A stretch of DNA of 64,000 bases, from the NCBI RefSeq assembly GCF_006439355.1, contig NZ_VFTG01000002.1:62001-126000 (forward strand), given 5' to 3'. The notes under the pieces are model-generated. The model saw only the letters and a program-made list of their open reading frames with translations, made no database searches and was not told the DNA's origin. Position 1 is the first letter of the stretch. Each line of letters opens with the position of its first letter. This DNA is from Mesorhizobium sp. B4-1-3. Lineage in GTDB: Bacteria; Pseudomonadota; Alphaproteobacteria; Rhizobiales; Rhizobiaceae. Both the position numbers and the translations under genes were made by a program. Positions 40,407 through 57,473 of the stretch are shown here, in pieces.

Positions 40407-41714
40407 CTAGATATCCAGCGTGTGGTCGCGCTCCCACTGCGTGAAGTGCGACGCATAGGAATTCCATTCCTGCTGCTTCAGCTTTAGATATGCCGACGAA
40501 AATTCCTCACCCAGCGCCGCCTTGAGCGATTTGTCGTTGTCGAATTCGCGCAGCGCGTCGAGCAGGTTGAGCGGCAGTTTCGGCGCATCCGTGACCGTAT
40601 GGCCTAGCTGGTACATGTCGATGTCGTAGCGCTTGCCGGGATCCGCCTTGGAGCGGATGCCGTCGAGGCCGGCAGCGATGATGACGGCCTGCAGGAGGTA
40701 GGGATTGGCGGCGCCATCCGGCAGACGCAGCTCGAAGCGCCCTGGCCCCGGCACGCGCACCATATGGGTACGGTTGTTGCCGGTCCAGGTCACCGTGTTC
40801 GGCGCCCAGGTCGCGCCCGAAATGGTGCGCGGCGCGTTGATGCGCTTATAGGAGTTGACCGTCGGATTCGTGATCGCGGCGAGCGCCGAGGCATGCTTCA
40901 TGATGCCGCCGAGAAAGTTCCTGCCCTTGGCGGAGAGGCCGAGCTCTTGCGAATTATCGGCAAACACGTTGGTCTTGCCGCTCTCGTCCCACACCGAGAT
41001 ATGCGCATGGCAGCCATTGCCGGTCAGGCCCTGGAAGGGCTTGGGCATGAAGGTCGCGCGAAGGCCATGCTTCTCGGCGATCGACTTGACCATGAACTTG
41101 AAGAAGGAGTGCTTGTCGGCGGTCGCCAGCGCGTGATCGAAGGTCCAGTTCATCTCGAACTGGCCGTTGGCATCCTCATGGTCGTTCTGGTACGGACCCC
41201 AGCCCAGCGCCAGCATATAGTCGCAGATCTCGGCGATCACGTCGTAGCGGCGCATCACCGCCTGCTGGTCGTAGCAGGGCTTCGAGGCCGTATCGTATTC
41301 GTCGGAGATCGCCTTGCCGTCGGGCGAGATCAGGAAGAACTCGGCCTCGACGCCGGTCTTGACATGCATGCCGTCGCGGGCGGCTTCGTCGATCACCCGC
41401 TTCAGCGTGTTGCGCGGCGCCTGGTCGACGAGCTTGTCATCCATCACGCAGGTGGCCGCGACCCAGGCGACGTCTTTCTTCCACGGCAATTGGATAACCG
41501 AATCCGGGTCCGGCACCGCCAGCATGTCCGGATGCGCGGGCGTCAGATCGAGCCAGGTCGCGAAGCCGGCGAAGCCCGCACCGTCCTTCTGCATGTCGGC
41601 GATCGCCTGCGCCGGCACCAGCTTGGCGCGTTGCCCGCTGAACAGGTCGGTGTAGGAGATCATGAAATATTTGACGCCGTTCTCCTTGGCGAATGCGGCG
41701 AGATCGTTCCCCAT
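40407..41714 (-). CDS. gmaS: gamma-glutamylmethylamide synthetase (glutamine synthetase family)
   Basis: 435 residues, GS type III/GlnT-like. Joins monomethylamine to glutamate with ATP to give gamma-glutamylmethylamide, first step of the N-methylglutamate route. GS landmarks: GVEAEFFLISPDG (metal-binding glutamates), YQNDHEDANGQFEMNW, NGCHAHISVWD, and the ATP-site region TWTGNNRTHMVRVPGPGRFE. Without context 'glnT' would be a fair label; placement directly between mgsC and mgdA makes gmaS far more likely. GAGGAA precedes the ATG. Fourth gene of the eight-gene operon from mgsA. Confidence 0.88.
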   Translation of the reverse strand: MGNDLAAFAKENGVKYFMISYTDLFSGQRAKLVPAQAIADMQKDGAGFAGFATWLDLTPAHPDMLAVPDPDSVIQLPWKKDVAWVAATCVMDDKLVDQAPRNTLKRVIDEAARDGMHVKTGVEAEFFLISPDGKAISDEYDTASKPCYDQQAVMRRYDVIAEICDYMLALGWGPYQNDHEDANGQFEMNWTFDHALATADKHSFFKFMVKSIAEKHGLRATFMPKPFQGLTGNGCHAHISVWDESGKTNVFADNSQELGLSAKGRNFLGGIMKHASALAAITNPTVNSYKRINAPRTISGATWAPNTVTWTGNNRTHMVRVPGPGRFELRLPDGAANPYLLQAVIIAAGLDGIRSKADPGKRYDIDMYQLGHTVTDAPKLPLNLLDALREFDNDKSLKAALGEEFSSAYLKLKQQEWNSYASHFTQWERDHTLDI

Positions 41715-41750
41715 TATAGTTCCTCGCTTATGTGATCTTGGAAGTTTGTC

Positions 41751-43079
41751 TTAGAAACCGTTCTTCCCCGGTATCCAGTTGGTGCCGGCCAAAGGCACGC
41801 CGGCCATGGCGGCGGCTTCGATCGAGAGCGCGACGAGATCCTCGGGCTCGAGATTATGCAGTCTGTTCTTGCCGCAGGCGCGGGCAATCGTTTGCGCTTC
41901 CAGCGTCATCACCTTGAGGTAGTTCGCCAGCCGTCGTCCGGCCGCGATCGGGTCGACCCGCTTCATCAATTCGGGGTCCTGCGTGGTGATGCCGGCCGGG
42001 TCGCGACCCTCATGCCAGTCGTCATAGGCGCCGGCGGTGGTGCCCAGCGCATTGTACTCCGCCTCCCAGCGCGGATCGTTGTCGCCGAGCGCGACGAGCG
42101 CCGCCGTGCCGATCGACACCGCGTCGACGCCGAGCGCCAGCGCCTTGGCGACATCGGCGCCGTTGCGGATGCCGCCGGAAACGATCAACTGCACCTTGCG
42201 ATGCATGCCGAGGTCCTGCAGCGCCTGCACTGCCGGCCTGATGCAGGCAAGCGTCGGCTGGCCGACATTCTCGATGAACACTTCCTGGGTCGCGGCCGTG
42301 CCGCCCTGCATGCCGTCGACCACGACGACGTCCGCGCCGGCCTTCACCGCGAGCGCGGTGTCATAGTAGGGGCGGGCGCCGCCGACCTTGACATAGATAG
42401 GCTTTTCCCAGTCGGTGATCTCGCGCAGTTCGAGGATCTTGATCTCGAGATCGTCCGGGCCGGTCCAGTCGGGATGGCGCGAGGCCGAGCGCTGGTCGAT
42501 GCCCTTGGGCAGGGTGCGCATCTCGGCGACGCGGTCGGAAATCTTCTGCCCCAGCAGCATGCCGCCGCCGCCGGGCTTGGCGCCCTGGCCGACCACCACT
42601 TCGATCGCGTCGGCGCGGCGCAGGTCGCGCGGATTCATGCCGTAGCGCGAGGGCAGGTATTGATAGACCAGCGTCTTCGAATGGCCGCGCTCTTCCTCGG
42701 TCATGCCGCCGTCGCCCGTCGTGGTCGAGGTGCCGGAAAGCGTGGCGCCGCGCCCCAACGCTTCCTTGGCGGGACCAGAGAGAGATCCAAAGCTCATGCC
42801 GGCGATGGTGATCGGGATCTTCAGCTCGATCGGCTTCCTGGCGTGGCGCGAGCCGAGCACCACCGAGGTGTCGCAGCGCTCGCGATAGCCTTCGAGCGGA
42901 TAGCGCGAGATCGAGGCGCCGAGGAATAACAGGTCGTCGAAATGCGGCAGCTTGCGCTTGGCGCCGGCGCCGCGGATGTCATAGATGCCGGTCGCGGCCG
43001 CGCGGCGGATCTCGGAAAGCGTGTAGTCGTCGAAGGTCGCGGATTTGCGCGGCGTCGTCGGCGGGTTGCGGTAAGTCAT
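41751..43079 (-). CDS. mgsC: N-methylglutamate synthase, FMN-binding glutamate-synthase-like subunit
   Basis: 442 residues, homologous to the FMN/(beta/alpha)8 domain of glutamate synthase (GltB central part). Key segments: ITIAGMSFGSLSGPAKEALG, the GEGGM-like loop as TGDGGMTEEERGHSK, QGAKPGGGGMLLGQKISDRV, and VDGMQGGTAATQEVF. In the pathway, Mgs moves the methylamine group from gamma-glutamylmethylamide to 2-oxoglutarate/glutamate to give N-methylglutamate. It is also known in Sinorhizobium as glxD. Follows mgsB by 6 bp and precedes gmaS by 36 bp. Confidence 0.88.
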   Translation of the reverse strand: MTYRNPPTTPRKSATFDDYTLSEIRRAAATGIYDIRGAGAKRKLPHFDDLLFLGASISRYPLEGYRERCDTSVVLGSRHARKPIELKIPITIAGMSFGSLSGPAKEALGRGATLSGTSTTTGDGGMTEEERGHSKTLVYQYLPSRYGMNPRDLRRADAIEVVVGQGAKPGGGGMLLGQKISDRVAEMRTLPKGIDQRSASRHPDWTGPDDLEIKILELREITDWEKPIYVKVGGARPYYDTALAVKAGADVVVVDGMQGGTAATQEVFIENVGQPTLACIRPAVQALQDLGMHRKVQLIVSGGIRNGADVAKALALGVDAVSIGTAALVALGDNDPRWEAEYNALGTTAGAYDDWHEGRDPAGITTQDPELMKRVDPIAAGRRLANYLKVMTLEAQTIARACGKNRLHNLEPEDLVALSIEAAAMAGVPLAGTNWIPGKNGF

Positions 43080-43085
43080 CTTGCC

Positions 43086-43817
43086 TCAATACGCGTCGGC
43101 GTTATCGATGTTGAAATTGTAGAGTTTGCGGGCCGAACCGTAGCGTTTGAACTCCGAGGCCTTGACGCCGGTGACGCCGGCCTTGTCGAGCAGGCCTTGC
43201 AACAATTCGATATGCTCGGGCCGCATTTCCTTGGCGATGCAGTCGGCGCCGAGGCTTTCCACCTTGCCGCGCACGAAGAGCCGCGCCTCGTAGATTGAGT
43301 CGCCCAAGGCATCGCCGGCATCGCCCAGCACCACGAGGTTGCCGGACTGCGCCATGAAGGCCGACATGTGGCCGATGTTGCCGTGCACGACGATGTCGAT
43401 GCCCTTCATCGAGATGCCGCAGCGCGAGGAGGCATTGCCCTCGATGACCAGCAAGCCGCCGCGACCGGTGGCGCCGGCATACTGGCTGGCGTCGCCCTTG
43501 ATGACGATCGAGCCCGACATCATGTTCTCGCCGACGCCGGGCCCGGCCGAGCCATGCACGGTGATCGCCGCGCCGTCATTCATGCCGGCGCAGTAATAGC
43601 CGACGCTGCCGCGCACATCGATGCTGACCGGCTGGTCGACGCCGACGGCGACCGAATGGCTGCCCTTCGGATTGAGCACCTCCCAGGCGGTCTCGTTCGA
43701 GCCGGGCGTGAGCTTGTGCAGCGCCTGGTTCAACTCGCGCAACGAGTGTTGCGAGAGATCGAACACCGTCGCATGGCCTTGCTCGCGCTCGGCCTTCGAT
43801 ATCGGGGTTGCCGGCAT
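43086..43817 (-). CDS. mgsB: N-methylglutamate synthase, GXGXG-domain subunit
   Basis: 243 residues, equivalent to the C-terminal GXGXG beta-helix of glutamate synthase (GAAITVHGSAGPGVGENMMS, DASQYAGATGRGGLLVIEGN, AQSGNLVVLGDAGDALGDS). This domain has a structural role between amidotransferase and FMN domains. ATG at 43817 lies 4 bp after the mgsA stop; the longer frame would overlap mgsA. Synonym in Sinorhizobium: glxC. Confidence 0.87.
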   Translation of the reverse strand: MPATPISKAEREQGHATVFDLSQHSLRELNQALHKLTPGSNETAWEVLNPKGSHSVAVGVDQPVSIDVRGSVGYYCAGMNDGAAITVHGSAGPGVGENMMSGSIVIKGDASQYAGATGRGGLLVIEGNASSRCGISMKGIDIVVHGNIGHMSAFMAQSGNLVVLGDAGDALGDSIYEARLFVRGKVESLGADCIAKEMRPEHIELLQGLLDKAGVTGVKASEFKRYGSARKLYNFNIDNADAY

Positions 43818-43821
43818 CAGC

Positions 43822-44718
43822 TCAATGCTCCCAGAAATAAACGGTTGCGGGCTCGGGCTCCCAGACCCGCGCATTGTCGATGCCGGGCAGCTTGGTCAGC
43901 GCGCGATATTCCGAGCCGAAGGCGACATACTGGTCGGTCTCGGCCATCACGGCGGGCTTGCAAGCGATCGGATCGCGCACCACGCCGAAGCCGTTCTTGG
44001 TGCCGACGACGAAGGTGAAGAAGCCGTCGAGGTCGGAGAGCGTGCCTTCCAGCGCCTCGCCGAGATTCTTGCCATGCGCCATCCGGTTGGAGAGATAGGC
44101 AGCGGCCACTTCCGTGTCGTTCTCGGTCTCGAACGTCATGCCGTCGCGGATCAGCTCGCGGCGTACATTGTTGTGGTTGGAGAGCGAGCCATTGTGCACC
44201 AGGCACTGGTCGGCGCCGGTCGAGAACGGATGCGCGCCCATCGTCGTCACAGCCGATTCCGTCGCCATGCGGGTGTGGCCGATGCCGTGCGTGCCGGTCA
44301 TCGCGCGCACGCCGAAGCGTTCGACGACGGCTTCGGGCAGGCCGACTTCCTTGTAGATCTCCACTGCCTCGCCGGCACCCATGATGCGGATGTCGGGCCG
44401 GAGCGTCTGCAGTACCTCGCGTGCGGCGTCGAACTTGTCCGGCGTGGTCCTGATCACCGCATGCGTGGACTTGACCGCTACGCTGACCGGCGCGCCGATC
44501 GCCTTGGCGAGGTCCGCGTCGAGGCCGCGGAAATCGCGATCGGGCGTCGGCGACTGCACGGTGATCTTGGCTTCATTGCCGGTGGCCGCGCCATAGATGG
44601 CAATGCCGGCGCTGTCCGGTCCGCGGTCGCTCAGCGACACCAGCATCTCGGACAGCATGGCGCCGAGCTTCGGCTCCAGCGCCTTGTCCTTCAAGAAAAG
44701 CCCGACGATTCCGCACAT
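43822..44718 (-). CDS. mgsA: N-methylglutamate synthase, class II glutamine amidotransferase-like subunit
   Basis: 298 residues. Starts MCGIVGLFLKDKALE, so Cys2 becomes the N-terminal nucleophile after methionine removal; SDRGPDSAGIAIYG, GTHGIGHTRMATESAV and CLVHNGSLSNHNNVRRELI complete the class II amidotransferase fold. It would release methylamine (or ammonia) from gamma-glutamylmethylamide and channel it to MgsC. The upstream frame adds 20 residues that would bury the cysteine. First gene of an eight-gene operon reaching to mgdD; cluster box at 44783-44804 about 65 bp upstream. Confidence 0.9.
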   Translation of the reverse strand: MCGIVGLFLKDKALEPKLGAMLSEMLVSLSDRGPDSAGIAIYGAATGNEAKITVQSPTPDRDFRGLDADLAKAIGAPVSVAVKSTHAVIRTTPDKFDAAREVLQTLRPDIRIMGAGEAVEIYKEVGLPEAVVERFGVRAMTGTHGIGHTRMATESAVTTMGAHPFSTGADQCLVHNGSLSNHNNVRRELIRDGMTFETENDTEVAAAYLSNRMAHGKNLGEALEGTLSDLDGFFTFVVGTKNGFGVVRDPIACKPAVMAETDQYVAFGSEYRALTKLPGIDNARVWEPEPATVYFWEH

Positions 44719-44804: not shown

Positions 44805-45134
44805 TTACATCTTAGACGGCGCATTGCCCCCGGCACTATCGCCGTCCGGGCGCGCCTTGTGAACCCAGATCGCATGGCGGATGCGCGCAATCCGGTAGGC
44901 GTCGAGGATCGCGAAGGCATAGATCAGGAAGCCGCCGGCATGGCGGCCGATGAAGCTGGCGTCGGCCGGAGCCAGCTTCATCGTTATCCAGCCAAGGATC
45001 ACCATGAAGAACAGGAACTGCAGGCCGCGCGCCGGCATGCCGAGCATGACATGGCCGCTTGCCGGCAAGACGACCGCGGCGCCGAGCACGAGATAGGGAT
45101 TCACGGGAGCAAGGGAGGCGGTTTCGTCGCTCAT
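44805..45134 (-). CDS. 109-residue membrane protein, unknown function
   Basis: Two to three hydrophobic helices: NPYLVLGAAVVLPASGHVML, then GLQFLFFMVILGWITMKL and HAGGFLIYAFAILDAYRIAR, with a basic tail. The pattern G-H-x2-L-G-x3-R-G resembles small TM2-like or 'DUF' membrane proteins that I cannot name. Overlaps the 229-residue gene by ATGA, so they are translated together. Last gene of the permease operon whose first gene starts at 48138. Confidence 0.72.
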   Translation of the reverse strand: MSDETASLAPVNPYLVLGAAVVLPASGHVMLGMPARGLQFLFFMVILGWITMKLAPADASFIGRHAGGFLIYAFAILDAYRIARIRHAIWVHKARPDGDSAGGNAPSKM

Positions 45135-45820
45135 GCGGCCCGCCTTTCGCGCCGGTTGATGGCTTGGCGAAGTGTCGAGGCTGCCTCGAGCAGCCGTTCG
45201 ATCAAGGCCGGATCGATCCCGGCATCCCCGAACGCGGCCTGCCGGAACACGCCGTAGCGTGCGCGCTCGGCCTCGGCCAGCAGCCACACGATGCGCACGC
45301 CCTTTGGCGTGATCAGCAATTCCTTGGCGCGGCTTTCGGCAAAGATGTCCGTATGCGCGGCGATCAGATCCTGGGGGAAGGCGACGCCTCTGCGATCCGT
45401 CTTGAGCACCGCGTCGGCGGGAAAGCCGAGCACCTTCGGCAGCGTGTGCGGCAGATGGTCGAAATTGGAGAATGTCGTTGCCGAATTCGGCCGCATCATC
45501 ATGTCGAAGACACCCGGCATCGCGGTCGGCTCGGTGATCGAGACGCTGAGCCAGCGCGTCGGCAGCTTTCGTGTCGCCAGCGTGTCGACGATGGTGCGCA
45601 GCTGAACGCGCTGACCGTTCCAGGAACCGGCCCAGGTGACGACGCCGGCCGTGCCGTCGGAAATGTCGGCGGCATCGGGAACGACGCTGCGGACGCTTGC
45701 CATATCGGCGGCCAGGGCCGCCTTCGCCCTGTTGCGACTGGCGCGCGCGAGCCAGGCAATGTGGACGGCGACCGCCAATGCGATCGCCCCGGCAAGCAAC
45801 ACTGACGTCAGTTCCGACAT
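45131..45820 (-). CDS. 229-residue membrane-anchored protein, unknown function
   Basis: An N-terminal helix (SVLLAGAIALAVAVHIAWLA) anchors a soluble domain of about 200 residues with GVVTWAGSWNGQRVQLRTIV and RWLSVSITEPTAMPGVFDMM. No catalytic motif, metal site or repeat is visible. The domain would face the cytosol or periplasm depending on topology (the positive RASRNR after the helix favours a cytosolic domain). Located between the APC permease and the 109-residue membrane protein, coupled by ATGA to the latter. Not recognised; probably accessory to amine transport because of position. Confidence 0.7.
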   Translation of the reverse strand: MSELTSVLLAGAIALAVAVHIAWLARASRNRAKAALAADMASVRSVVPDAADISDGTAGVVTWAGSWNGQRVQLRTIVDTLATRKLPTRWLSVSITEPTAMPGVFDMMMRPNSATTFSNFDHLPHTLPKVLGFPADAVLKTDRRGVAFPQDLIAAHTDIFAESRAKELLITPKGVRIVWLLAEAERARYGVFRQAAFGDAGIDPALIERLLEAASTLRQAINRRERRAA

Positions 45821-45866
45821 TTTGACACGCCACGGCCCGCCGTCGACAGGCGGGCCTTCACTCCAC

Positions 45867-47270
45867 TCAATAACCCTGCGGCTTCGGCCATGGCATGGAG
45901 AACTGGTCGCCGCGCCGCACGAACTTGTAGCGGTAGAAGTGGAACCACAGTGAAATCAAGAAATAGAAGGCGACCATCGCGATCAACTGCGAGCCGAAGC
46001 CGAGGAAGATGGCGAAATAGGTCACCACGCACAGGCAGAACAGCACGATCGCCGGCAGCGGATGGAAGGGATGCGTATAGCCGCGGCGGATCGAGCCGAG
46101 CGGCCATTTCCTCCTGAACATCATGATGTTGATGCTCATGAAGGTGTATTGCAGCACACCCGATAGGATGGAGAAGGTGATCGCCTGGTTGAGGTCGGCG
46201 ATGAAGGCGAAGGCCAGCGCGATCGGCAGCAGGAACAGGATCGACCGATAGGGCGTGCGGTATTTCGGATGCACCGCCGAGAACCAGCTTGGCAGATAGC
46301 GGTCGCGGCCGAGTGAGAACCAGGCGCGCGCCGCGTCGTTGATGCAGCCATTGGCCGACGCAAGCGCCGCCAGAAGCGTCGCGACGAAGAGCAGGTTTTC
46401 GAGCAGCGGGCTGCCGGTCAGCTTACCCGCGTCCCACAGCGGATAGGGAGTGATGCCGAGATATTCCCAGGGCATCAGAGAGGCGCAGACATACCAGGTC
46501 ATCGCGGCGGCGATCAGAAGCGTGATCATGCCGGCCATGGTGCCATAGGGCAGCGAGCGCGCCGGGGAGCGCACTTCCTCTGCTGCCTGCGTGGTGCCCT
46601 CGATGCCGAGATAATACCAGATGCCGAACTGGAAAGCGGCGATGACCCCGATCCAGCCATAGGGCAGTGCGTTGCCGGGCGTGACCAACTCGTTAAGCTT
46701 AAGCACCGCTCCTTGTGTCCACGGACTGACGGAGAAGAACAGGATGACGATTGAGACATAGGCGATCGCGGTAATGACGAAGTTGACGTTGAGCGTCATC
46801 AAGACGCCGCGATAATTGAGCCAGGCGAGCACCACGATGGTGGCGGCGATGAAGGAATTGTGCGTCAAGCCGTCCACACCCGCCTTGGCGACGATGGTGT
46901 CGCCGAGCAGGATCGCGTCCGACACTTCGAGCATGGTGTAGGCGAAGACCAGGAAGAGCGCGACATTGAAGGCCATCAGAGGCCCGACGATGTGCTTGGC
47001 CTGCGCATACTGGCCGCCGGCGGCCGCGACGGTGGACGTCACCTCGGAATCGATCATGGCGACCGAGGTGTAGAGCAGTCCGACGACCCAGCAGACGATC
47101 AGCGCGGCGAGCGAGCCGCCCTTGTCGGCCGAGAAATTCCAACCGGTGAACTCTCCAACCAGCACGATGCCCACGCCGAGCGCCCAGACGTGAGCGGGGC
47201 CAAGCACCCGAAGCAGCGAGACCCGGTCGCCGCTTGCTGTCGTTCCTACTGTGTCAACTGCGGCCGTCAT
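45867..47270 (-). CDS. APC-family permease, probable methylamine or ethanolamine-type carrier
   Basis: 467 residues, about 12 helices. Similar to ethanolamine permease EutP/EAT of APC: helix 1 region GVGIVLVGEFTGWNFSADKG, and FGIWYYLGIEGTTQAAEEVR in the helix 6 region, AWFSLGRDRYLPSWFSAVHP after helix 8. Fourth gene of an operon led by three small membrane proteins, 46 bp ahead of the 229-residue gene. Given gmaS and mgs genes directly downstream, import of methylamine or a methylated amine is a fair inference. Confidence 0.85.
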   Translation of the reverse strand: MTAAVDTVGTTASGDRVSLLRVLGPAHVWALGVGIVLVGEFTGWNFSADKGGSLAALIVCWVVGLLYTSVAMIDSEVTSTVAAAGGQYAQAKHIVGPLMAFNVALFLVFAYTMLEVSDAILLGDTIVAKAGVDGLTHNSFIAATIVVLAWLNYRGVLMTLNVNFVITAIAYVSIVILFFSVSPWTQGAVLKLNELVTPGNALPYGWIGVIAAFQFGIWYYLGIEGTTQAAEEVRSPARSLPYGTMAGMITLLIAAAMTWYVCASLMPWEYLGITPYPLWDAGKLTGSPLLENLLFVATLLAALASANGCINDAARAWFSLGRDRYLPSWFSAVHPKYRTPYRSILFLLPIALAFAFIADLNQAITFSILSGVLQYTFMSINIMMFRRKWPLGSIRRGYTHPFHPLPAIVLFCLCVVTYFAIFLGFGSQLIAMVAFYFLISLWFHFYRYKFVRRGDQFSMPWPKPQGY

Positions 47271-47284
47271 TGCTCAGTCCCCAC

Positions 47285-47446
47285 TCAAATCCGGTGTTTT
47301 TCGGAAACGGCTTCAAGCTCGCCCTCGCGCGAGGACGTCAGCACATCCTCGGAATAGCTCGTGTCGACCTTGAACCAGTCGTAGAGCATCCACAGCGCAA
47401 GAACGACCGAGATGCCCCAGCATGCGTAAGAAAGTGACAGCCACAT
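47285..47446 (-). CDS. 53-residue single-span membrane protein, unknown function
   Basis: A short gene with the ribosome site GGAGG 7 nt before its ATG. The product starts MWLSLSYACWGISVVLALWM (one helix) and continues with an acidic tail, LYDWFKVDTSYSEDVLTSSR, ending HRI. It sits 16 bp behind the 125-residue membrane-protein gene and 14 bp before the permease start, on the same strand. Size, single helix and position are those of a small transporter subunit. It is easily missed because of length. Confidence 0.75.
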   Translation of the reverse strand: MWLSLSYACWGISVVLALWMLYDWFKVDTSYSEDVLTSSREGELEAVSEKHRI

Positions 47447-47462
47447 GGTGCGCCTCCGGGCT

Positions 47463-47840
47463 TTATTTGTCGTTGAACTTCTCGTTGATGACCTCGCGAT
47501 ATTCGCGGTCGGAAGCTCGGAAAAGGAAGACGAAATAGGCGATCAGCACGATCGCCATGACGATCAGCGTCGGCCAGTCGGTGACGTAGTGAAAGCGGTT
47601 CTGGATGACGTCGTGCGCCGTCTCGGGCGTATAGCCCAGTTTCCCCCAGATCGAGGCCATCGTCGCGTTCTGGCCGAGCGCTTCCCAGGTCTTGGCGTCG
47701 AGCGCATCGATCGATTTCGCGGCGCCTGCCAGCCCCAATTTCAACGGCAGCCAGAGCGCCACGAAGATGGTCACCACAACGACCGCGATGTCGAAGATCT
47801 GCCCGGCCTTGCCTTGCTCCGGTGGTGTATAGCGCGCCAT
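47463..47840 (-). CDS. 125-residue two-helix membrane protein, unknown function
   Basis: Helix 1 (IFDIAVVVVTIFVALWLPLK) and helix 2 (WPTLIVMAIVLIAYFVFLFR) flank a loop of about 60 residues with ALGQNATMASIWGKLGY. Both ends are predicted cytosolic by the positive-inside rule (the tail is DREYREVINEK). ATG preceded by GAGGA. Second gene of the permease operon, ten bp after the 95-residue gene. No family recognised. Confidence 0.72.
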   Translation of the reverse strand: MARYTPPEQGKAGQIFDIAVVVVTIFVALWLPLKLGLAGAAKSIDALDAKTWEALGQNATMASIWGKLGYTPETAHDVIQNRFHYVTDWPTLIVMAIVLIAYFVFLFRASDREYREVINEKFNDK

Positions 47841-47850
47841 CTCTTTGTCC

Positions 47851-48138
47851 TCAGGATTTGCGGTTGCGGGCCGCGTCGGCATTCTTGATGTCGAGCCCGT
47901 AGATGAAGTCCTTGTCTTCCTTGTAATGCCTGACCATCGCGAGGATCGCGGCGGTGTTGAAAACCAGAACCGCGGCGGCGCCCACCGCCACGACGGCCTT
48001 GATGCCGCTGTGTGGAATGTATGGCCAGGTCATCAGGAGGACGAAGAGGATCGTTGCCCAGAGGCACACGATCAGGAGCGCGGACCCACGCACGTCGGAA
48101 CGGTACAGCGCTTCGATGCGCTGCTGCATGTCGGACAT
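47851..48138 (-). CDS. 95-residue two-helix membrane protein, unknown function
   Basis: Starts MSDMQQRIEALYRSDVRGSA, followed by helix 1 (LIVCLWATILFVLLMTWPYI) and helix 2 (GIKAVVAVGAAAVLVFNTAA), with a charged tail ending DAARNRKS. AAGGGG precedes the ATG at 48138. First gene of the operon that continues through the 125- and 53-residue proteins to the APC permease. The cluster box 48201-48220 lies 63-82 bp upstream, so this operon is probably co-regulated with dmmD in the opposite direction. Confidence 0.72.
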   Translation of the reverse strand: MSDMQQRIEALYRSDVRGSALLIVCLWATILFVLLMTWPYIPHSGIKAVVAVGAAAVLVFNTAAILAMVRHYKEDKDFIYGLDIKNADAARNRKS

Positions 48139-48200: not shown

Positions 48201-48220
48201 GAGTGAAATTTTTTCATAAA
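48201..48220. promoter_or_regulatory. cluster box, permease-operon side
   Basis: GAGTGAAATTTTTTCATAAA. Shares GAGTGAAATTT and TTTC-T-A with the tmm box, and contains the perfect dyad TGAAA-TTT-TTTCA. It lies upstream of the 95-residue membrane-protein gene on the minus strand, and at a distance from dmmD. Confidence 0.55.
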
Positions 48221-48300
48221 TTCTGCCCGATTCTCGAAATTGTCAAGCTGGATTTACGTTTGGTAAACCGCTCGTGTCGGCCGGAAAATTTGCCTGACAA

Positions 48301-48317
48301 TGAAATTATTTGCTTCA
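48301..48317. promoter_or_regulatory. cluster box, dmmD side
   Basis: TGAAATTATTTGCTTCA, a looser version of the same box with TGAAATT and TTCA ends, 117-133 bp before the dmmD ATG. The rest of this 295-bp intergenic region shows no other clear site. Confidence 0.35.
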
Positions 48318-48433: not shown

Positions 48434-49567
48434 ATGACGGCATCCTGGAGATTCTCGACCCTGGCGGATCGCCATCGCGCGCTCGGCTCGAAGCTCGAGG
48501 ACTGGAGCGGCATGGGCACCGCCTGGACCTATGACAAGGATGCCGACGAGGAATATGTCGCGATCCGCACCAAGGCTGGGCTGATGGATGTGTCCGGCCT
48601 GAAGAAGGTCCACATCACCGGCCCGCATGCCTCGCATCTGATCGACCTCGCCACGACGCGTGACGTGGAGAAAATCTATCCCGGCAAGTCCGCCTATGCC
48701 TGCATGCTGAACGAGGCCGGCAAATTCACCGACGACTGCATCCTCTACCGCATCAGCCCGAACTCCTGGATGGTCGTGCACGGCTCCGGCACCGGCCATG
48801 AGGAGCTGCAGCGTGCTTCCGTTGGGCGTGATGTCTCGCTGCGCTTCGACGACAATCTGCACGACCTGTCGCTGCAAGGCCCGACCGCGGTCGACTATCT
48901 CGCCAAGCATGTGCCGGGCATCCGCGACCTTAACTACTTCCATCACATGCAGACCCAGCTCTTCGGCTTGCCCGTCATGATCTCGCGCACCGGCTACACC
49001 GGCGAGCGCGGCTACGAGATATTCTGCCGCGGCCAGGACGCCGGCACGATCTGGGATCGGATCCTCGAGGAGGGCAAGAGCGCCGGCATCATCCCGTGCC
49101 GCTTCACCACGCTCGACATGCTGCGCGTCGAGAGCTACCTGCTCTTCTATCCCTACGACAATTCGCAGAAATATCCGTTCGAGAACGAAGGCCCCGGCGA
49201 CACGCTGTGGGAGCTCGGCCTCGACTTCACCGTCAGCCCCGGCAAGACCGGCTTCCGCGGCGCCGAGGAACACTATCGGCTGAAGGGCAAGGAGCGCTTC
49301 AAGATCTATGGCGTGCTGCTCGAGGGCAAGGAGCCAGCGGACGAGGGCGCGCCCGTCTACCGCGACGGCAAGAAGGTCGGCGTGGTGACCTGCGCCATGT
49401 ATTCGCCGCTGGTCGAGAAATCGATGGGCATCGCCCGTCTCGACGTCGACTGCGCGGTCAAGGACACCAAGCTCGAGATCCGCAACAGGAGCGGGTCGAT
49501 CAAGGCGACGGCGCAGCCCTTGCCGTTCGACGATCCGAAGAAGACCAAGCGCACCGCCAAGGGTTGA
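48434..49567 (+). CDS. dmmD: GcvT-family aminomethyltransferase of the dimethylamine operon
   Basis: 377 residues, aminomethyltransferase (T-protein) fold without the FAD domain. Folate-site landmarks: YACMLNEAGKFTDDCILYRI, HDLSLQGPTAVDYLAKHVPG, VMISRTGYTGERGYEIFCRG. Likely binds tetrahydrofolate and captures formaldehyde released on dimethylamine oxidation, as the DmmD component found with DmmABC in marine bacteria. The family also contains DMSP demethylase DmdA and glycine cleavage T; the neighbours argue against those. First gene of dmmD-A-B-C, with GGAGGA before the ATG. A stem-loop repeat separates it from dmmA. Confidence 0.82.
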   Translation: MTASWRFSTLADRHRALGSKLEDWSGMGTAWTYDKDADEEYVAIRTKAGLMDVSGLKKVHITGPHASHLIDLATTRDVEKIYPGKSAYACMLNEAGKFTDDCILYRISPNSWMVVHGSGTGHEELQRASVGRDVSLRFDDNLHDLSLQGPTAVDYLAKHVPGIRDLNYFHHMQTQLFGLPVMISRTGYTGERGYEIFCRGQDAGTIWDRILEEGKSAGIIPCRFTTLDMLRVESYLLFYPYDNSQKYPFENEGPGDTLWELGLDFTVSPGKTGFRGAEEHYRLKGKERFKIYGVLLEGKEPADEGAPVYRDGKKVGVVTCAMYSPLVEKSMGIARLDVDCAVKDTKLEIRNRSGSIKATAQPLPFDDPKKTKRTAKG

Positions 49568-52447: not shown

Positions 52448-53167
52448 TTAACCCGCGCTGTTCTGCGGATAGCAAATGATCGACAGATACCGCATCGGCA
52501 ACTGCGTCAACTCTTCCGGTCCGTGCGGCGCGTCGGCGTCGAAGAACAGGCTGTCGCCGGGCTTCATCGGATAGAGATTGTTGCCGTGCCGGTAAACGAC
52601 CTCGCCTTCGAGCATGTAGAGGAACTCCATGCCCGCATGCTGGAACGTCGGGAACACGTCCGAATTCTCGGTCAGGGTGATGAGATAGGGCTCGACCACG
52701 ACGCCGCTGGTATTGGCGCCGATATGACCGAGCAGATTGTATTGATGGCCGGCGCGCGTGCCGCGCCGCTCGACATCGACGCCTTCGCCCGCCTTGACGA
52801 GGACGGCGCTGTGCTCTTCTTCGAAACGCCGGAAGAAGGCGGTCACCGGGACGCCCAGCGCCCGCGACAGCGCCTGCAGCGTCGTCAGCGACGGCGAGGT
52901 GATGCCGTTCTCGATCTTCGACAGCATGCCAAGCGAAATGTCGGTGGCCGCGGCGAGATCGGCGACGGTGATGCCGAGCTTCTTGCGGAAGGCGCGCACC
53001 TCGTGGCCGATCGCCACTTCGAGCACCTTCTCGCGCGTGTCGCGAATGGCATGCGGGTTCTGGGTCAGCGGCGTGCGGATCGTGCGCCCATCCGCCGAAA
53101 CGCGCTTCGGCGGCACCTTGCTCTTGGCGGCCGCAGAGGGCTTTGTGTCAGAAGTCTTGTTTGCCAT
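52448..53167 (-). CDS. XRE-family regulator with C-terminal cupin domain
   Basis: 239 residues. A basic low-complexity N-terminus (1-45) precedes an HTH of the lambda-repressor type (about 56-115: RKKLGITVADLAAATDISLG, then MLSKIENGITSPSLTTLQAL) and a cupin (about 165-235: HAGMEFLYMLEGEVVYRHGN, KPGDSLFFDADAPHGPEEL) that probably binds an effector. Same build as PuuR and betaine/amine-catabolism regulators. Placed between the dmm operon and tmm, it is the only regulator inside the island, so it is the best candidate to bind the cluster boxes. GAGGG precedes the ATG. Confidence 0.88.
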   Translation of the reverse strand: MANKTSDTKPSAAAKSKVPPKRVSADGRTIRTPLTQNPHAIRDTREKVLEVAIGHEVRAFRKKLGITVADLAAATDISLGMLSKIENGITSPSLTTLQALSRALGVPVTAFFRRFEEEHSAVLVKAGEGVDVERRGTRAGHQYNLLGHIGANTSGVVVEPYLITLTENSDVFPTFQHAGMEFLYMLEGEVVYRHGNNLYPMKPGDSLFFDADAPHGPEELTQLPMRYLSIICYPQNSAG

Positions 53168-53446: not shown

Positions 53447-53483
53447 AAGTCGAGAGTCGAAGTCGGAAAAGAGGAGGCCCGCA

Positions 53484-54842
53484 ATGAAATCTCGTGTCGC
53501 CGTCATCGGAGCTGGGCCGTCGGGCCTAGCCCAGTTGAGGGCCTTCAAGTCGGCCGCCGACAAGGGCGCCGAGATCCCGGAGATCGTCTGTTTCGAGAAG
53601 CAGAGCGACTGGGGCGGGCTGTGGAATTACACCTGGCGCACCGGCCTCGACGAGCATGGCGACCCGGTGCATGGCTCGATGTACCGCTATCTGTGGTCGA
53701 ACGGGCCGAAGGAGTGCCTCGAATTCGCCGACTATACCTTCGAGGAGCATTTCGGCCGGCCGATCGCCTCCTATCCGCCGCGCGCGGTGCTGTGGGACTA
53801 CATCAAGGGCCGCGTCGAGAAATCCGGGGTGCGCAAATGGGTGCGGTTCAACACGCCAGTGCGCATGGTCACCTACTCCGACGAAACCAAGAGGTTCACT
53901 GTCACCGCGCACGACCGCACCAACGACTTGACCTATTCGGAGGAGTTCGACAACGTCGTCGTTGCCTCCGGCCATTTCTCCGTGCCCAACGTGCCCTTCT
54001 TCGAGGGCTTCCCCACCTTCAATGGCCGCATCCTGCACAGCCATGATTTCCGCGACGCGATGGAGTTCAAGGGCAAGGACATCTTGATCATCGGCCGCTC
54101 CTATTCGGCCGAGGACATCGGTTCGCAATGCTACAAATACGGCGCCAAATCGATCACCTCCAGCTACCGTTCCAAGCCGATGGGCTTCAAATGGCCGGAG
54201 AACTGGAAGGAAGTGCCGCTGCTGCAGAAGGTCGTCGGCAAGACGGCGCATTTCAAGGACGGCACGACCAAGGATGTCGACGCCATCATCCTGTGCACCG
54301 GCTACCTGCACTCCTTCCCCTTCCTCACCGACGACCTCAAGCTCAAGACCGCCAATCGCATGTGGCCGCTCGATCTTTATGAAGGCGTCGTCTGGGAGAA
54401 GAATCCGAAGCTCTTCTACATTGGCATGCAGGACCAGTTCTACACTTTCAACATGTTCGACGCGCAGGCCTGGTACGCGCGCGACGTGATGCTTGGCCGC
54501 ATCAAGCTGCCCTCCGCCGAGGCGATGGCCGAGCACAGCGCCAAGTGGCGTGCCCGGGAAGAGACCCTCGAAGACGCCGAGCAGATGATCTGGTTCCAGG
54601 GCGACTACACCAAGGAGCTGATGGACCAGACCGATTATCCGGGCTTCGATGTCGAGGCGGTCAACCGCACCTTCATGGAGTGGGAGCACCACAAGATGGA
54701 AAACATCATGACCTTCCGCGACAACGCCTACCGCTCGCTGATGACCGGCACCATGGCGCCGTTGCATCACACGCCGTGGCTGCAGGCGCTCGACGATTCG
54801 ATGGAGAGCTATCTCGAGGTGAAGGGCGTCGCGGCCGAGTGA
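53484..54842 (+). CDS. tmm: trimethylamine monooxygenase
   Basis: 452 residues, flavin-containing monooxygenase converting trimethylamine to TMAO with NADPH and O2. FAD site [17 protein letters not shown] at the N-terminus; FMO fingerprint [16 protein letters not shown] site [29 protein letters not shown] as the second dinucleotide motif. Whole-length match to bacterial Tmm (e.g. [20 protein letters not shown] and [20 protein letters not shown] near the ends) rather than to other FMOs or Baeyer-Villiger enzymes. GAGGAGG before the ATG. Single gene with its own promoter, a leader hairpin and a terminator. Confidence 0.93.
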
Positions 54843-54924: not shown

Positions 54925-55815
54925 TCAGAAATACCCGTCCGACGCGGCCGTCGCTTCCTTGGGAATCTCCACGCCGTCGACCAGGATCTTGTCGACCAGC
55001 TCGTGATGGAAACACACCAGGCCCTTGATCCGCTCGGCCTCGTGCACCGGCTCGGGATAGTACCAGACGAGGTTCTCGTGCCGCTTCTTCGGCGTCGTCA
55101 CGTGATAGTAGTTTGAGATGCCTTTATAGGGGCAGCGCGAGATGTAGCGGCTGGGCGAAAACATATCGAGCCGCGTATCCGAGATCGGCAGGTAGTGGCG
55201 CACCGGATGGCCGGTCTCGAACAGGAACACGCCGCGCCGTGAATCGGCCACCTGCTCGCCGTCAAGGATCACCTGCACGCGCCGCGACGAAGGCAGGCAG
55301 TCGACGCGGCGGAACGGGTCGCGGGCATGGACGAAGATCTCTTCGTCCTCCTCATACCAATGGGTCATCTTCGGCCAATAGAAGGATATGTAGTCCTGGA
55401 TCGGCGGGCAGCCCTTGACCGGGTCGAGATAGCGCCATGCGCCGTCTTCGACCAGCGTGATGCCGGTATTCAAAGAATAATGCGTGGCGACGCCCTTGAA
55501 CGGATCTTCCGTGACCGTCCGGCTCGGCAGCAGGAACTCCTCGCGCACGTCGCTCATCGGGAAGTAATAGACCGGCAGATGGTCGCTTTCCTGGAACACC
55601 AGCGCCTTGGTGGTGTCGGCGACGATCATCGGTCCCACCTGCACCCTGATCCGCTTGGGCGAGGGCATGGTGAAGGCGACATAGCCCGGTTCGAACTCGT
55701 ATTGCACGATGCCGTCGAGTATCGGGAAATGCGGCCCGCGGCCGCGCAGATGGGGCTTGCGAATGGTACTTGTCCTTTTTTCGTCGTTTGCGGCCAGGGC
55801 TTTGCGCACGCTCAT
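54925..55815 (-). CDS. tandem DUF427-domain protein
   Basis: 296 residues with two copies of a beta-rich domain: first about 35-130 (RIRVQVGPMIVADTTKALVF, PVYYFPMSDVREEFLLPSRT, DPFKGVATHYSL) and second about 175-270 (RVQVILDGEQVADSRRGVFL, HYLPISDTRLDMFSPSRYIS, PYKGISNYYHV). Each has the W/F-P-x-D and Y-x-P-x-S pattern of DUF427. No known enzyme activity. ATG at 55815 with GGTGGG upstream, 2 bp after the binding-protein stop, so it is coupled to that ABC component. It may act on or sense the imported compound. Confidence 0.82.
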   Translation of the reverse strand: MSVRKALAANDEKRTSTIRKPHLRGRGPHFPILDGIVQYEFEPGYVAFTMPSPKRIRVQVGPMIVADTTKALVFQESDHLPVYYFPMSDVREEFLLPSRTVTEDPFKGVATHYSLNTGITLVEDGAWRYLDPVKGCPPIQDYISFYWPKMTHWYEEDEEIFVHARDPFRRVDCLPSSRRVQVILDGEQVADSRRGVFLFETGHPVRHYLPISDTRLDMFSPSRYISRCPYKGISNYYHVTTPKKRHENLVWYYPEPVHEAERIKGLVCFHHELVDKILVDGVEIPKEATAASDGYF

Positions 55816-55817
55816 GG

Positions 55818-57473
55818 TCAACCCACCGATACACGATCGAGCAGCAGGCCCGCTGCGATCGGCGGCACGCCGCTGACGGTCTTGCGCACCGGCACCAGCA
55901 GGTCCGGGAAATAGCTGAAGATCACCGGCGTCTCGTCGAGCAGCAGCTTCTGGATGTCGGAAGCGGCCTTGCGCTGGGCATCGAGGTCGAGCGCCTTCAA
56001 ATAGCTGTTGACCAGCCCGTCATAGGTCGCGTTCTTGAAATGCGCCGCGTTCCACGGACCGTCGCTGACCAGCGGGCTCTTCAGGAACACGTTCGGCACG
56101 CTGCGATGCGCGTAGTCGGTGATGCCGAGCGGGCTGTCCAGCCAGTCCGACTGGCCGAACACCGCCTTGCCGTAATATTTGTCCTGCTCCTCGATGTTGA
56201 GCGAGATGCGCGCACCGATCTCCTTGGCGAAGTTCTGGAAGAGCTGCGCATAGCCGGGGATGTCGGAATAGCGCAGCGTCGTCAGCATCATGTCGAAGCC
56301 GCTGGCCAGGCCCGCCGCCTCCATCAGCTGCTTGGCCTTGGCGATATCTTGCGTACGTTGCGCCACCGACTTGTCGGTGACCGGGAAGGCCGGCGCGAAC
56401 GGGCTGTCGTTGCCGGTGGCCGCCATGCCGCGGCAGAGACCGTCGACCAGTTGGGAACGGTCGATGCAAAGCGCCAGCGCCTGGCGCACGCGCTTGTCGG
56501 TGAAAGGCGCCATGTCGCAGCGCATGTGGAGCTGGCGATGCGCGGTCGAGGCCACGGGCAGCACCTGGATGTCGGGGTTGCCCAGCACAACCTGGCTGAC
56601 GTCGAGCGGGATGGCGTCGAGCACGTCGACCTCGCCCGCCTGCAGCGCGAGAATCCGCGGCTGCACATCGGCGTAGAACTTGAACTCGAGCCGGTCGGGC
56701 AGTGCTTTCTCGCCCCAATAGTCGGGGTTGCGCACGAAGCTCGCGCCGACCTTCGGCGTGTAGCTTTCGAGCCGGAACGGACCGGTGCCCTCGAAGGTCT
56801 TCTCGTAGTCTCCCTTGTAGCTCGCCGGCAGGATGACGGCGTTGTAATTGTCGATCGACACCGAATAGGGGAAGCTGCCATTCGGCGCGTCGAGATGGAA
56901 CTCCACCGTGTGGTCGTCGACCTTGCGCGTGCCGCCCTTCGATAACAGGCCCTTGAACACCGACAGCGCGTTGGACGCGCCGTTCGGGTCTGCGAGGCGA
57001 TCGAAGGTCGCCACAACGTCGTCGGCCTTGAAATCCTCGCCATTGTGGAATTTCACGCCCTTGCGCAGTTTGAAGGTCCACACGCTGCCATCGGCGTTGG
57101 GTGACCAGCTCTCGGCCAGCACCGGCTTCAGCGTCAGGTCGGGTTGCGTCACGCACAGGAACTCGGACGTCTGGAAGGCGAGCTGGTAGCTGCCGCTGTC
57201 GTAGAAAGTCACCGGATCGATGGCGCCGCCGGGCACGGCGACGCCAGCGCGCACAGTGCCGCCGGGCTTACCTTCGGCGCGTGCTGGCGGAGCGCCGAGA
57301 CCGAGCGCCGAAGCGATGCCGCCGAGGAAGGGCAGCGACAGGCCGAGCACGCTGCCATGGCGCAGGAATTCACGCCGGCCGACCCTGCCGGCGAGCAATT
57401 CGTCGATAGCGGAATTTTCGATTGCGCTGAGGGTTTTGCGAGCGGCGTCGATCGTCCTGAAATGCTTCGGCAT
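55818..57473 (-). CDS. ABC transporter substrate-binding protein, family 5
   Basis: 551 residues, dipeptide/oligopeptide-type binding protein. The long N-terminus with GRVGRREFLRHGSVLGLSLP is a twin-arginine (Tat) signal, cleaved near ARAEGKPGG. Core segments LAESWSPNADGSVWTFKLRK, GVKFHNGEDFKADDVVATFD, and AHFKNATYDGLVNSYLKALD mark the family. It has no permease of its own in the operon; the paralogue at 62441 (about 55-60% alike by eye) does. Probably feeds the same or a related importer. Divergent from the LysR gene with 127 bp between. Confidence 0.9.
   Translation of the reverse strand: MPKHFRTIDAARKTLSAIENSAIDELLAGRVGRREFLRHGSVLGLSLPFLGGIASALGLGAPPARAEGKPGGTVRAGVAVPGGAIDPVTFYDSGSYQLAFQTSEFLCVTQPDLTLKPVLAESWSPNADGSVWTFKLRKGVKFHNGEDFKADDVVATFDRLADPNGASNALSVFKGLLSKGGTRKVDDHTVEFHLDAPNGSFPYSVSIDNYNAVILPASYKGDYEKTFEGTGPFRLESYTPKVGASFVRNPDYWGEKALPDRLEFKFYADVQPRILALQAGEVDVLDAIPLDVSQVVLGNPDIQVLPVASTAHRQLHMRCDMAPFTDKRVRQALALCIDRSQLVDGLCRGMAATGNDSPFAPAFPVTDKSVAQRTQDIAKAKQLMEAAGLASGFDMMLTTLRYSDIPGYAQLFQNFAKEIGARISLNIEEQDKYYGKAVFGQSDWLDSPLGITDYAHRSVPNVFLKSPLVSDGPWNAAHFKNATYDGLVNSYLKALDLDAQRKAASDIQKLLLDETPVIFSYFPDLLVPVRKTVSGVPPIAAGLLLDRVSVG

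Follow-up and report, generated by a model that had tools for sequence, protein, structure and literature searches.

Introduction

Carriers of the APC superfamily have been found with partner proteins in several settings. In heteromeric amino acid transporters an APC-fold SLC7 carrier needs a membrane-anchored SLC3 partner, and the APC carrier GkApcT was crystallized with a one-helix protein, MgtS (both in passages of PMC5803215); in a spore germinant receptor, GerAB of the APC superfamily forms a complex with GerAA and GerAC and senses amino acids (passages of PMC8617281). Among transporters of another kind, mycobacterial TtfA is anchored in the membrane by an N-terminal helix with its body in the cytoplasm, and binds MmpL3, whose transport depends on it (passages of PMC6593404). 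Here we describe a six-gene cassette at 44805–48138 of a 64,000-nucleotide stretch of Mesorhizobium sp. B4-1-3 (contig NZ_VFTG01000002.1, positions 62,001–126,000; the whole stretch is referred to hereafter as the window), in which an APC permease is encoded together with five small proteins, named here by their length as g95, g125, g53, g229 and g109. Other loci and genomes of the comparison are given L and G numbers where they have to be told apart.

Multi-part APC complexes already exist (SLC7/SLC3, GerA, GkApcT–MgtS in crystals), and the cassette would be a further variant of these; the statement in the preliminary description of this locus that APC carriers normally work alone thus needs a caveat, GkApcT with MgtS and GerAB in its three-protein complex being counterexamples. 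SLC3 is one large animal glycoprotein, whereas the partners encoded here are five small bacterial proteins. GkApcT with MgtS resembles the permease with g53; MgtS, however, was supplied by the E. coli host, and stability was equal without it (58 versus 57 °C; passages of PMC5803215), in contrast to the five dedicated genes of the cassette.

We propose that the six proteins work as a single multi-component system of the inner membrane that takes up a small primary amine, most likely methylammonium, and feeds GmaS and the N-methylglutamate pathway, and we put the probability of this reading at a little over one half (roughly 55%). The unity of the cassette and its link to the pathway favour a multi-component amine carrier over the other readings; the physical complex, methylamine as its substrate and the parts played by the single small proteins are inferred. 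As a source of carbon and nitrogen, methylamine is widespread. In the literature searched, no dedicated methylamine importer is named for N-methylglutamate-pathway bacteria beyond Amt-type ammonium transporters; amtB is named in a figure legend of a methylamine cluster (passages of PMC5520151), and amino-acid permeases are reported among the functions responding to methylamine in Methyloversatilis (abstract of PMC5023235). In line with the label “undescribed” given to the system, no such cassette is named in that literature (subscription literature mostly, as well as figures and supplements, lay outside the search), including the passages of PMC4543880, PMC5520151, PMC13390433, PMC5023235, PMC5017803, PMC9800807 and PMC8235418.

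Results

Six genes form one discrete cassette

The six open reading frames (ORFs) are all present on the minus strand with the sizes first attributed to them (Table 1), and their tight spacing is evident from the coordinates, gaps of 10, 16, 14 and 46 nt being followed by a 4-nt ATGA overlap between g229 and g109. Hydropathy likewise bears out the helix counts (two in g95, two in g125, one in g53 and a single anchor in g229), and G/A-rich stretches upstream of the ORFs are, judged by eye, compatible with ribosome sites. All six genes are under purifying selection, the permease having the lowest and g109 the highest median dN/dS (68 pairs per gene, window against Mesorhizobium-type loci, saturated pairs excluded; Table 1). 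Because these ratios are low and the same six-gene order recurs in distant lineages, the ORF set is more than a product of chance.

Across a plasmid collection of 72,556 records, each of the six proteins matches 22 records, and these are the identical 22 for all six (thresholds E≤0.01 for g125, 0.1 for g53, g95 and g109, 1 for g229 and 1e-40 for the permease): nine from Aminobacter, six from Sinorhizobium, two each from Paracoccus and Paraburkholderia, and one each from Pararhizobium, Rhizobium and Pseudohalocynthiibacter. The small genes being absent or shuffled in orthologous clusters had been named as the outcome that would speak against a system; instead, genes and order are kept in 117/117 permease stretches that could be judged (108 distinct permeases, the majority from close Mesorhizobium relatives; of 146 stretches in total, 29 were too short to judge). 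For 115 of the 117 tblastn finds the six genes in order, while the remaining two, L127 and L133, are one locus of G543 fetched twice, whose more diverged g229 is detected by blastp and by profile. The permease family is itself discrete: in a phylum sample of 398 genomes, matches at E≤1e-60 are all 4.5e-248 or better, and the other APC genes of two genomes score only ~1e-35 against the cassette permease. A g229 profile has matches in 10 of 249 genomes, every one permease-positive (the inclusion of permease-positive G025, G669, G704 and G721 in that sample is not evident). As a control, none of 11 stretches around ethanolamine permeases (~1.5 kb each side) contains any of the five small proteins. 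The six genes are therefore a discrete, selected and indivisible cassette.

The cassette is also exchanged as one unit. In G721 (L117/L135) it lies between dmmD and mgsA, the same placement as in the window, and the flanks are close to those of the window (dmmD 89%, mgsC 94% and gmaS 89% identity), but the six cassette genes all belong to a second type. The L135 permease is 90% identical to that of L137 as against 68% to that of the window, and the corresponding pairs are 79 versus 47% for g125, 68 versus 49% for g95, 69 versus 51% for g53, 47 versus 31% for g229 and 69 (to L144) versus 41% for g109; the switch of type starts and stops at the cassette borders. The second type occurs also in Aminobacter, in Sinorhizobium and in some genomes from the same genus as the window (G005, G011, G019, G591 and G594), G011 having both types. 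Whole-block exchange is the behaviour that would be expected of a co-adapted set.

Single loci show some variation. A universal-stress-protein gene (PF00582, 89 bits; L132 8758–9192, minus strand) is inserted between permease and g229 in G704, and an annotated universal stress protein lies immediately upstream of the cassette in Paracoccus sp. MA (L145). In Rhizobium sp. RCAM05350 (L142) the permease is split over two frames and missing from the gene table, either as a pseudogene or through a sequencing error. A g53–permease fusion in L027 (frames joined, 524 residues), considered as proof of contact, differs from the close relative L147 by a single base and was not used.

The cassette accompanies the N-methylglutamate pathway

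Genomic context and co-occurrence link the cassette strongly to methylamine metabolism. In the window it is flanked on one side by dmmD and on the other by mgsA-mgsB-mgsC-gmaS, the block of N-methylglutamate pathway genes (40407..44718; names taken from published clusters). In the phylum sample, 14 genomes have the permease and 44 have mgsC, the latter being found in 14/14 permease-positive genomes versus 30/384 others (Fisher 5e-15; by genus 6/6, 5e-6, a count that removes relatedness only in part); the two genes lie within ~10 kb in 12 of the 14 and ~17 kb apart in one, and are on separate contigs in G591. Among 41 relatives, mgsC accompanies 20/21 g125-positive versus 7/20 g125-negative genomes, and in a class sample five of six permease-positive genomes have an mgsC match of at least 81%. 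All 12 genomes searched behind genome-contig loci, picked among L099–L113 so as to include loci without mgsC nearby, have the gene (70–95% identity, fragments only in two), and in the 56-locus Mesorhizobium cluster it is near the cassette in 56/56. In another class (G704) the cassette lies beside diverged mgsA (44%), gmaS (41%) and sarcosine-oxidase-type genes (44%), and on Aminobacter plasmids the serine-cycle genes ppc and glyA are found ~6–8 kb upstream of it. The cassette is thus nearly confined to genomes with the N-methylglutamate pathway; as a methylamine uptake system should, it occurs with the pathway, G111 (below) being the exception.

The permease combines an APC fold with an acidic TM1 motif

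The permease belongs to the APC superfamily, scoring 106.3 bits against PF00324 and 92.6 bits against PF13520 (Pfam gathering scores 24.6 and 27), and solved APC chains match it at E down to 6e-22. The nearest curated family is the ethanolamine permease TIGR00908 (167.9 bits), whose cut-off of 381.75 is not reached. The sequence LGVGIVLVGE in the first transmembrane helix (TM1) is present in 102 of 103 distinct cassette permeases, one not being matched, and the C-terminus of most orthologues reads close to QFxMPWPKPxGY.

In GkApcT (T43/G44) and AdiC (S26/G27), the G-x-G of the unwound TM1 holds the substrate carboxylate (passages of PMC5803215). A profile alignment places GkApcT G42-T43-G44-I45 opposite gap-V38-G39-E40 of the permease, such that this amino-acid-carrier motif is lacking, the placement of the gap being uncertain. 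Ethanolamine permeases share the acidic pattern: nine of the ten above the TIGR00908 cut-off have ISGE or ISGD where the cassette permease has VGE (the tenth, L214, was not read; L218, with His in the motif, lies below the cut-off and outside the ten), and theirs is the best NCBIfam match. They differ in that the cassette permease falls short of their cut-off, in that a tree places the two as separate groups with support 100/100, and in the absence of the small cassette genes from all 11 of their loci (~1.5 kb each side). The acidic residue and the lost amino-acid motif would fit an amine substrate without a carboxylate.

Five small companions, one with a TtfA-like modelled fold

The small proteins had been called unrecognised, and mostly they remain so: the permease alone reaches a Pfam cut-off and none of the six reaches one of NCBIfam, with g95 and g125 in no Pfam or NCBIfam family at cut-off and g53 without a family match even at E≤1. 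Orthologues of g109 match DUF6677 (PF20382) in 13/20 cases at E≤0.1 (best 1.5e-5), although g109 of the window does not; its AlphaFold model has a broken first helix followed by two long ones, and finds no Foldseek match at E≤0.001 and Z 5.6 or less in the other structure comparison. None of g95, g125, g53 and g109 has a credible solved-structure homologue. The small subunit of sodium symporters, a two-helix protein upstream of its carrier (which we take to be DUF4212), is absent from the Pfam matches of g95 and g125 at E≤1. Each of g95, g125 and g53 ends in a tail conserved across lineages; to judge by charge, those of g95 and g125 are probably cytoplasmic, and for g53 the same location is a guess.

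For g229, a structure model of good confidence (pLDDT 88.2, pTM 0.83) suggests a TtfA-like fold of an N-terminal helix and a cytoplasmic domain. VIA-align ranks TtfA first (Z 11.8, 157 residues, 4.1 Å), tied with the multipass-translocon chain 7tm3 (Z 11.8, 200 residues, 4.4 Å) and followed by 6w6l (9.9) and 9i78 (9.7); the remaining rows are far lower (6.9 and 5.9, with START and related domains following near 4). As modelled, g229 would thus resemble TtfA in fold, N-terminal helix, cytoplasmic body and companionship with a transporter gene; MmpL3 differs from the permease in being an RND lipid transporter. A sequence match of g229 to the YbjN family (PF10722) is sub-threshold (16.3 bits versus a gathering score of 22).

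A putative amine carrier with small subunits, and its rivals

In the mechanism that we favour, the APC permease would be the carrier, the glutamate next to its substrate site and the missing amino-acid motif fitting a cation without a carboxylate. The single helix of g53 and the hairpin of g95 would pack against it; g125 would also lie around the carrier, adding a periplasmic loop; and g229 would be a TtfA-like anchored cytoplasmic accessory domain, with g109 as its small membrane partner. We would expect the conserved tails to form a collar on the cytoplasmic side, for gating of the carrier or docking of GmaS, because the g95 and g125 tails are predicted to be cytoplasmic (that of g53 by a guess). 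Inside the cell, GmaS would trap the incoming amine as gamma-glutamylmethylamide. A bolder version, which we consider quite unlikely, makes the cassette a six-part secondary carrier in which an APC pore and five obligate companions, including a subunit of TtfA/CCDC47 fold, dock GmaS and hand methylammonium directly over, such that uptake and ATP-driven trapping are one machine; we know of no bacterial APC carrier of such make-up.

Several results weigh against a methylamine carrier of this kind. Of the relatives, G028 is g125-positive without mgsC (a contig end truncates its cassette, and the assembly is without the cassette permease); in the class sample, the 82% complete assembly of G111 has only an mgsC-like gene of 51% and no gmaS at E≤1e-60. 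When permeases with long flanks are clustered (9 of 87 long loci excluded, their permease DNA already tabled under another locus or not tabled), no mgsC comes within 10 kb in six of ten clusters (L104/L105, L108/L112, L101, L102, L025 and L026), and only 2/11 loci of the L024 cluster have one that near; for six genome-contig loci among the mgsC-distant clusters and for the Paraburkholderia replicon of L025 the gene lies elsewhere, while the plasmids behind L026, L142 and L144, in a search of plasmids only, are without it. Thirty mgsC-positive genomes of the phylum sample lack the permease, which is therefore not essential to the pathway. Foldseek alone gives g229 no match at E≤0.001, and no sequence link joins g229 to TtfA, its profile matching no PDB chain at E≤5. 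The literature searched yielded no transport, binding or knock-out data for the cassette, and by co-occurrence, stable subunits and assembly factors would look the same.

In a rival reading the permease works alone, and the five small proteins would serve it as dedicated factors for insertion, folding or stability and leave after assembly. The matched chains of 7tm3, 6w6l and 9i78 are presumably CCDC47, so that the g229 model could also point to the PAT complex, an intramembrane chaperone; strict co-occurrence, too, is expected of a dedicated chaperone. CCDC47 is the partner of Asterix in that complex (passages of PMC9630114). A direct equation of g229 with CCDC47 and g109 with Asterix was set aside in view of the structure searches with g109, which do not exclude the fold, and is kept as a rival idea. 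With g109 lacking a clear fold match, with three proteins being made ahead of the permease from upstream genes, at an operon spacing that fits subunits at least equally, and with most APC carriers needing no such helpers, we think assembly factors rather unlikely. Bystanders that merely share the operon we hold to be very improbable: operons can join unrelated genes, but here each gene has the same 22 plasmid records, the order is kept in distant lineages and the block is exchanged whole.

In all hosts, or in some of them, the substrate could instead be a different amine such as dimethylamine, ethylamine, ethanolamine or a polyamine, or the system could exchange amine for ammonium. The ethanolamine permease as nearest curated family would suit this, as would the neighbours of certain loci—an amidohydrolase and a saccharopine-dehydrogenase-type enzyme at L108, an amidase at L102, and at L144 a glutamine-synthetase-family gene only 28% like gmaS. 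The distance to the TIGR00908 cut-off, the presence of mgsC in the hosts of L102 and L108 (among the 12/12 searched) and its constant proximity throughout the Mesorhizobium cluster speak against this, and we hold another amine to be unlikely, if worth keeping in view. Less probable still is an amine sensor or transceptor, in which, in the manner of GerA receptors, amine would bind to the permease fold and the small proteins would do the signalling. GerAB offers a precedent for an APC-superfamily sensing complex, YbjN is described as a “putative bacterial sensory transduction regulator”, and a signalling role could fall to the conserved tails and the g229 domain; no signalling domain, however, reaches cut-off in the small proteins, YbjN is found in only 2/22 g229 orthologues at E≤0.1, and a PuuR-like regulator gene (family cut-off not reached) lies nearby at 52448–53167.

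The favoured reading, a multi-component methylammonium carrier, need not apply to every bacterium with the pathway. In 20 of the 30 permease-lacking pathway genomes, the ~10 kb around gmaS/mgs hold an Amt-family gene in six cases (two of the matches only 22–27% identical to the query) and another APC gene in one, the search there being limited to Amt and APC types; amine uptake is probably solved in several ways, of which the cassette is one. Amt transporters are of another family (PF00909), and also adjoin the cassette in L129 and L131. If the proposal is right, the cassette would be a dedicated methylamine importer for N-methylglutamate-pathway bacteria, and an APC-superfamily secondary carrier would be seen to rely on a group of small membrane proteins. 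It would also provide a compact bacterial model for TtfA-like anchored factors that help multipass transporters, and give a function to five gene families that are mostly “hypothetical protein” or unannotated in the records seen.

Layout of the cassette and its promoter region

Table 1. Positions in the window of the cassette genes, putative promoter elements and neighbouring pathway genes.
Feature	Position	Strand	Median dN/dS	Remarks
g95 (95 aa, two-helix hairpin)	47851..48138	-	0.139	conserved tail HYxEDKxFIYGLDIKxLD
g125 (125 aa, two helices around a ~55-residue loop, periplasmic by prediction)	47463..47840	-	0.089	conserved tail SDxEYREVIxExF
g53 (53 aa, single helix)	47285..47446	-	0.149	conserved tail LTSSREGExE
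APC permease (467 aa)	45867..47270	-	0.055	Glu40 in TM1; PF00324 and PF13520 over cut-off
g229 (229 aa, N-terminal helix and alpha/beta domain, cytoplasmic by prediction)	45131..45820	-	0.217	TtfA-like modelled fold
g109 (109 aa, small membrane protein, possibly DUF6677-like)	44805..45134	-	0.299	PF20382 matches among orthologues; structure model
Inverted repeat TGAAATTTTTTCA	48204..48216	.		probable operator of cassette promoter; main Mesorhizobium-type loci only
TTGACA, -35-like hexamer of cassette	48241..48246	-		conserved in alignment; 17 nt before GAATTTATG stretch; putative promoter role
Second box TGAAATTATTTGCTTCA, dmmD side	48301..48317	.		in conserved island; outer half-site varies
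dmmD (GcvT-like, all family matches below cut-off)	48434..49567	+		divergent neighbour, outside cassette
mgsA	43822–44718	-		downstream context; orthologues annotated glutamine amidotransferase
mgsB	43086–43874	-		downstream context; orthologues annotated GXGXG
mgsC	41751–43079	-		downstream context; orthologues annotated FMN-binding glutamate synthase
gmaS	40407–41714	-		downstream context; over TIGR03105 cut-off; orthologues annotated glnT

The preliminary description had the cassette co-regulated with dmmD through boxes noted at 48201 and 48301. Both boxes are real footprints (Table 1), the first being kept in 11/11 aligned Mesorhizobium-type rows with the window copy one A shorter, and for the main Mesorhizobium-type loci co-regulation is plausible. 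In 22/22 other loci read, including the exchanged cassette of L135 and four loci of the window's own genus (L106, L136, L137 and L139), the box was not found upstream of the cassette (L100, unreadable, is outside the 22); any co-regulation with dmmD is therefore local, and box-driven regulation was dropped as a feature of the system itself. The dmmD gene is 95–99% identical in most Mesorhizobium loci, and is not beside the cassette in L045, L054, L057, L060 and L062.

Further observations on neighbouring genes

Further along the window, a trimethylamine monooxygenase gene over its own family cut-off (53475–54842) lies beside a 297/298-residue ORF (54925–55821, minus strand) that is kept in several relatives and has no NCBIfam model at E≤1e-10. 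In L108 (12437–15398) the amidohydrolase follows the cassette, and the saccharopine-dehydrogenase-type protein, perhaps a homospermidine synthase, is found in both L108 and L112, a hint of polyamines. A second mgsC-like gene, 51% identical to mgsC, accompanies the true one in G077, G205, G303, G380, G030, G033 and the L104/L105 genomes. Plasmids of unrelated hosts (L026, L024/L141) have hmgA genes (homogentisate dioxygenase) close to the cassette, which may be chance. A second candidate amine carrier is another APC permease (~566 residues), which turns up repeatedly close to methylamine or cassette genes, in L133, L137, L139, L140 and the cassette-lacking pathway locus L184.

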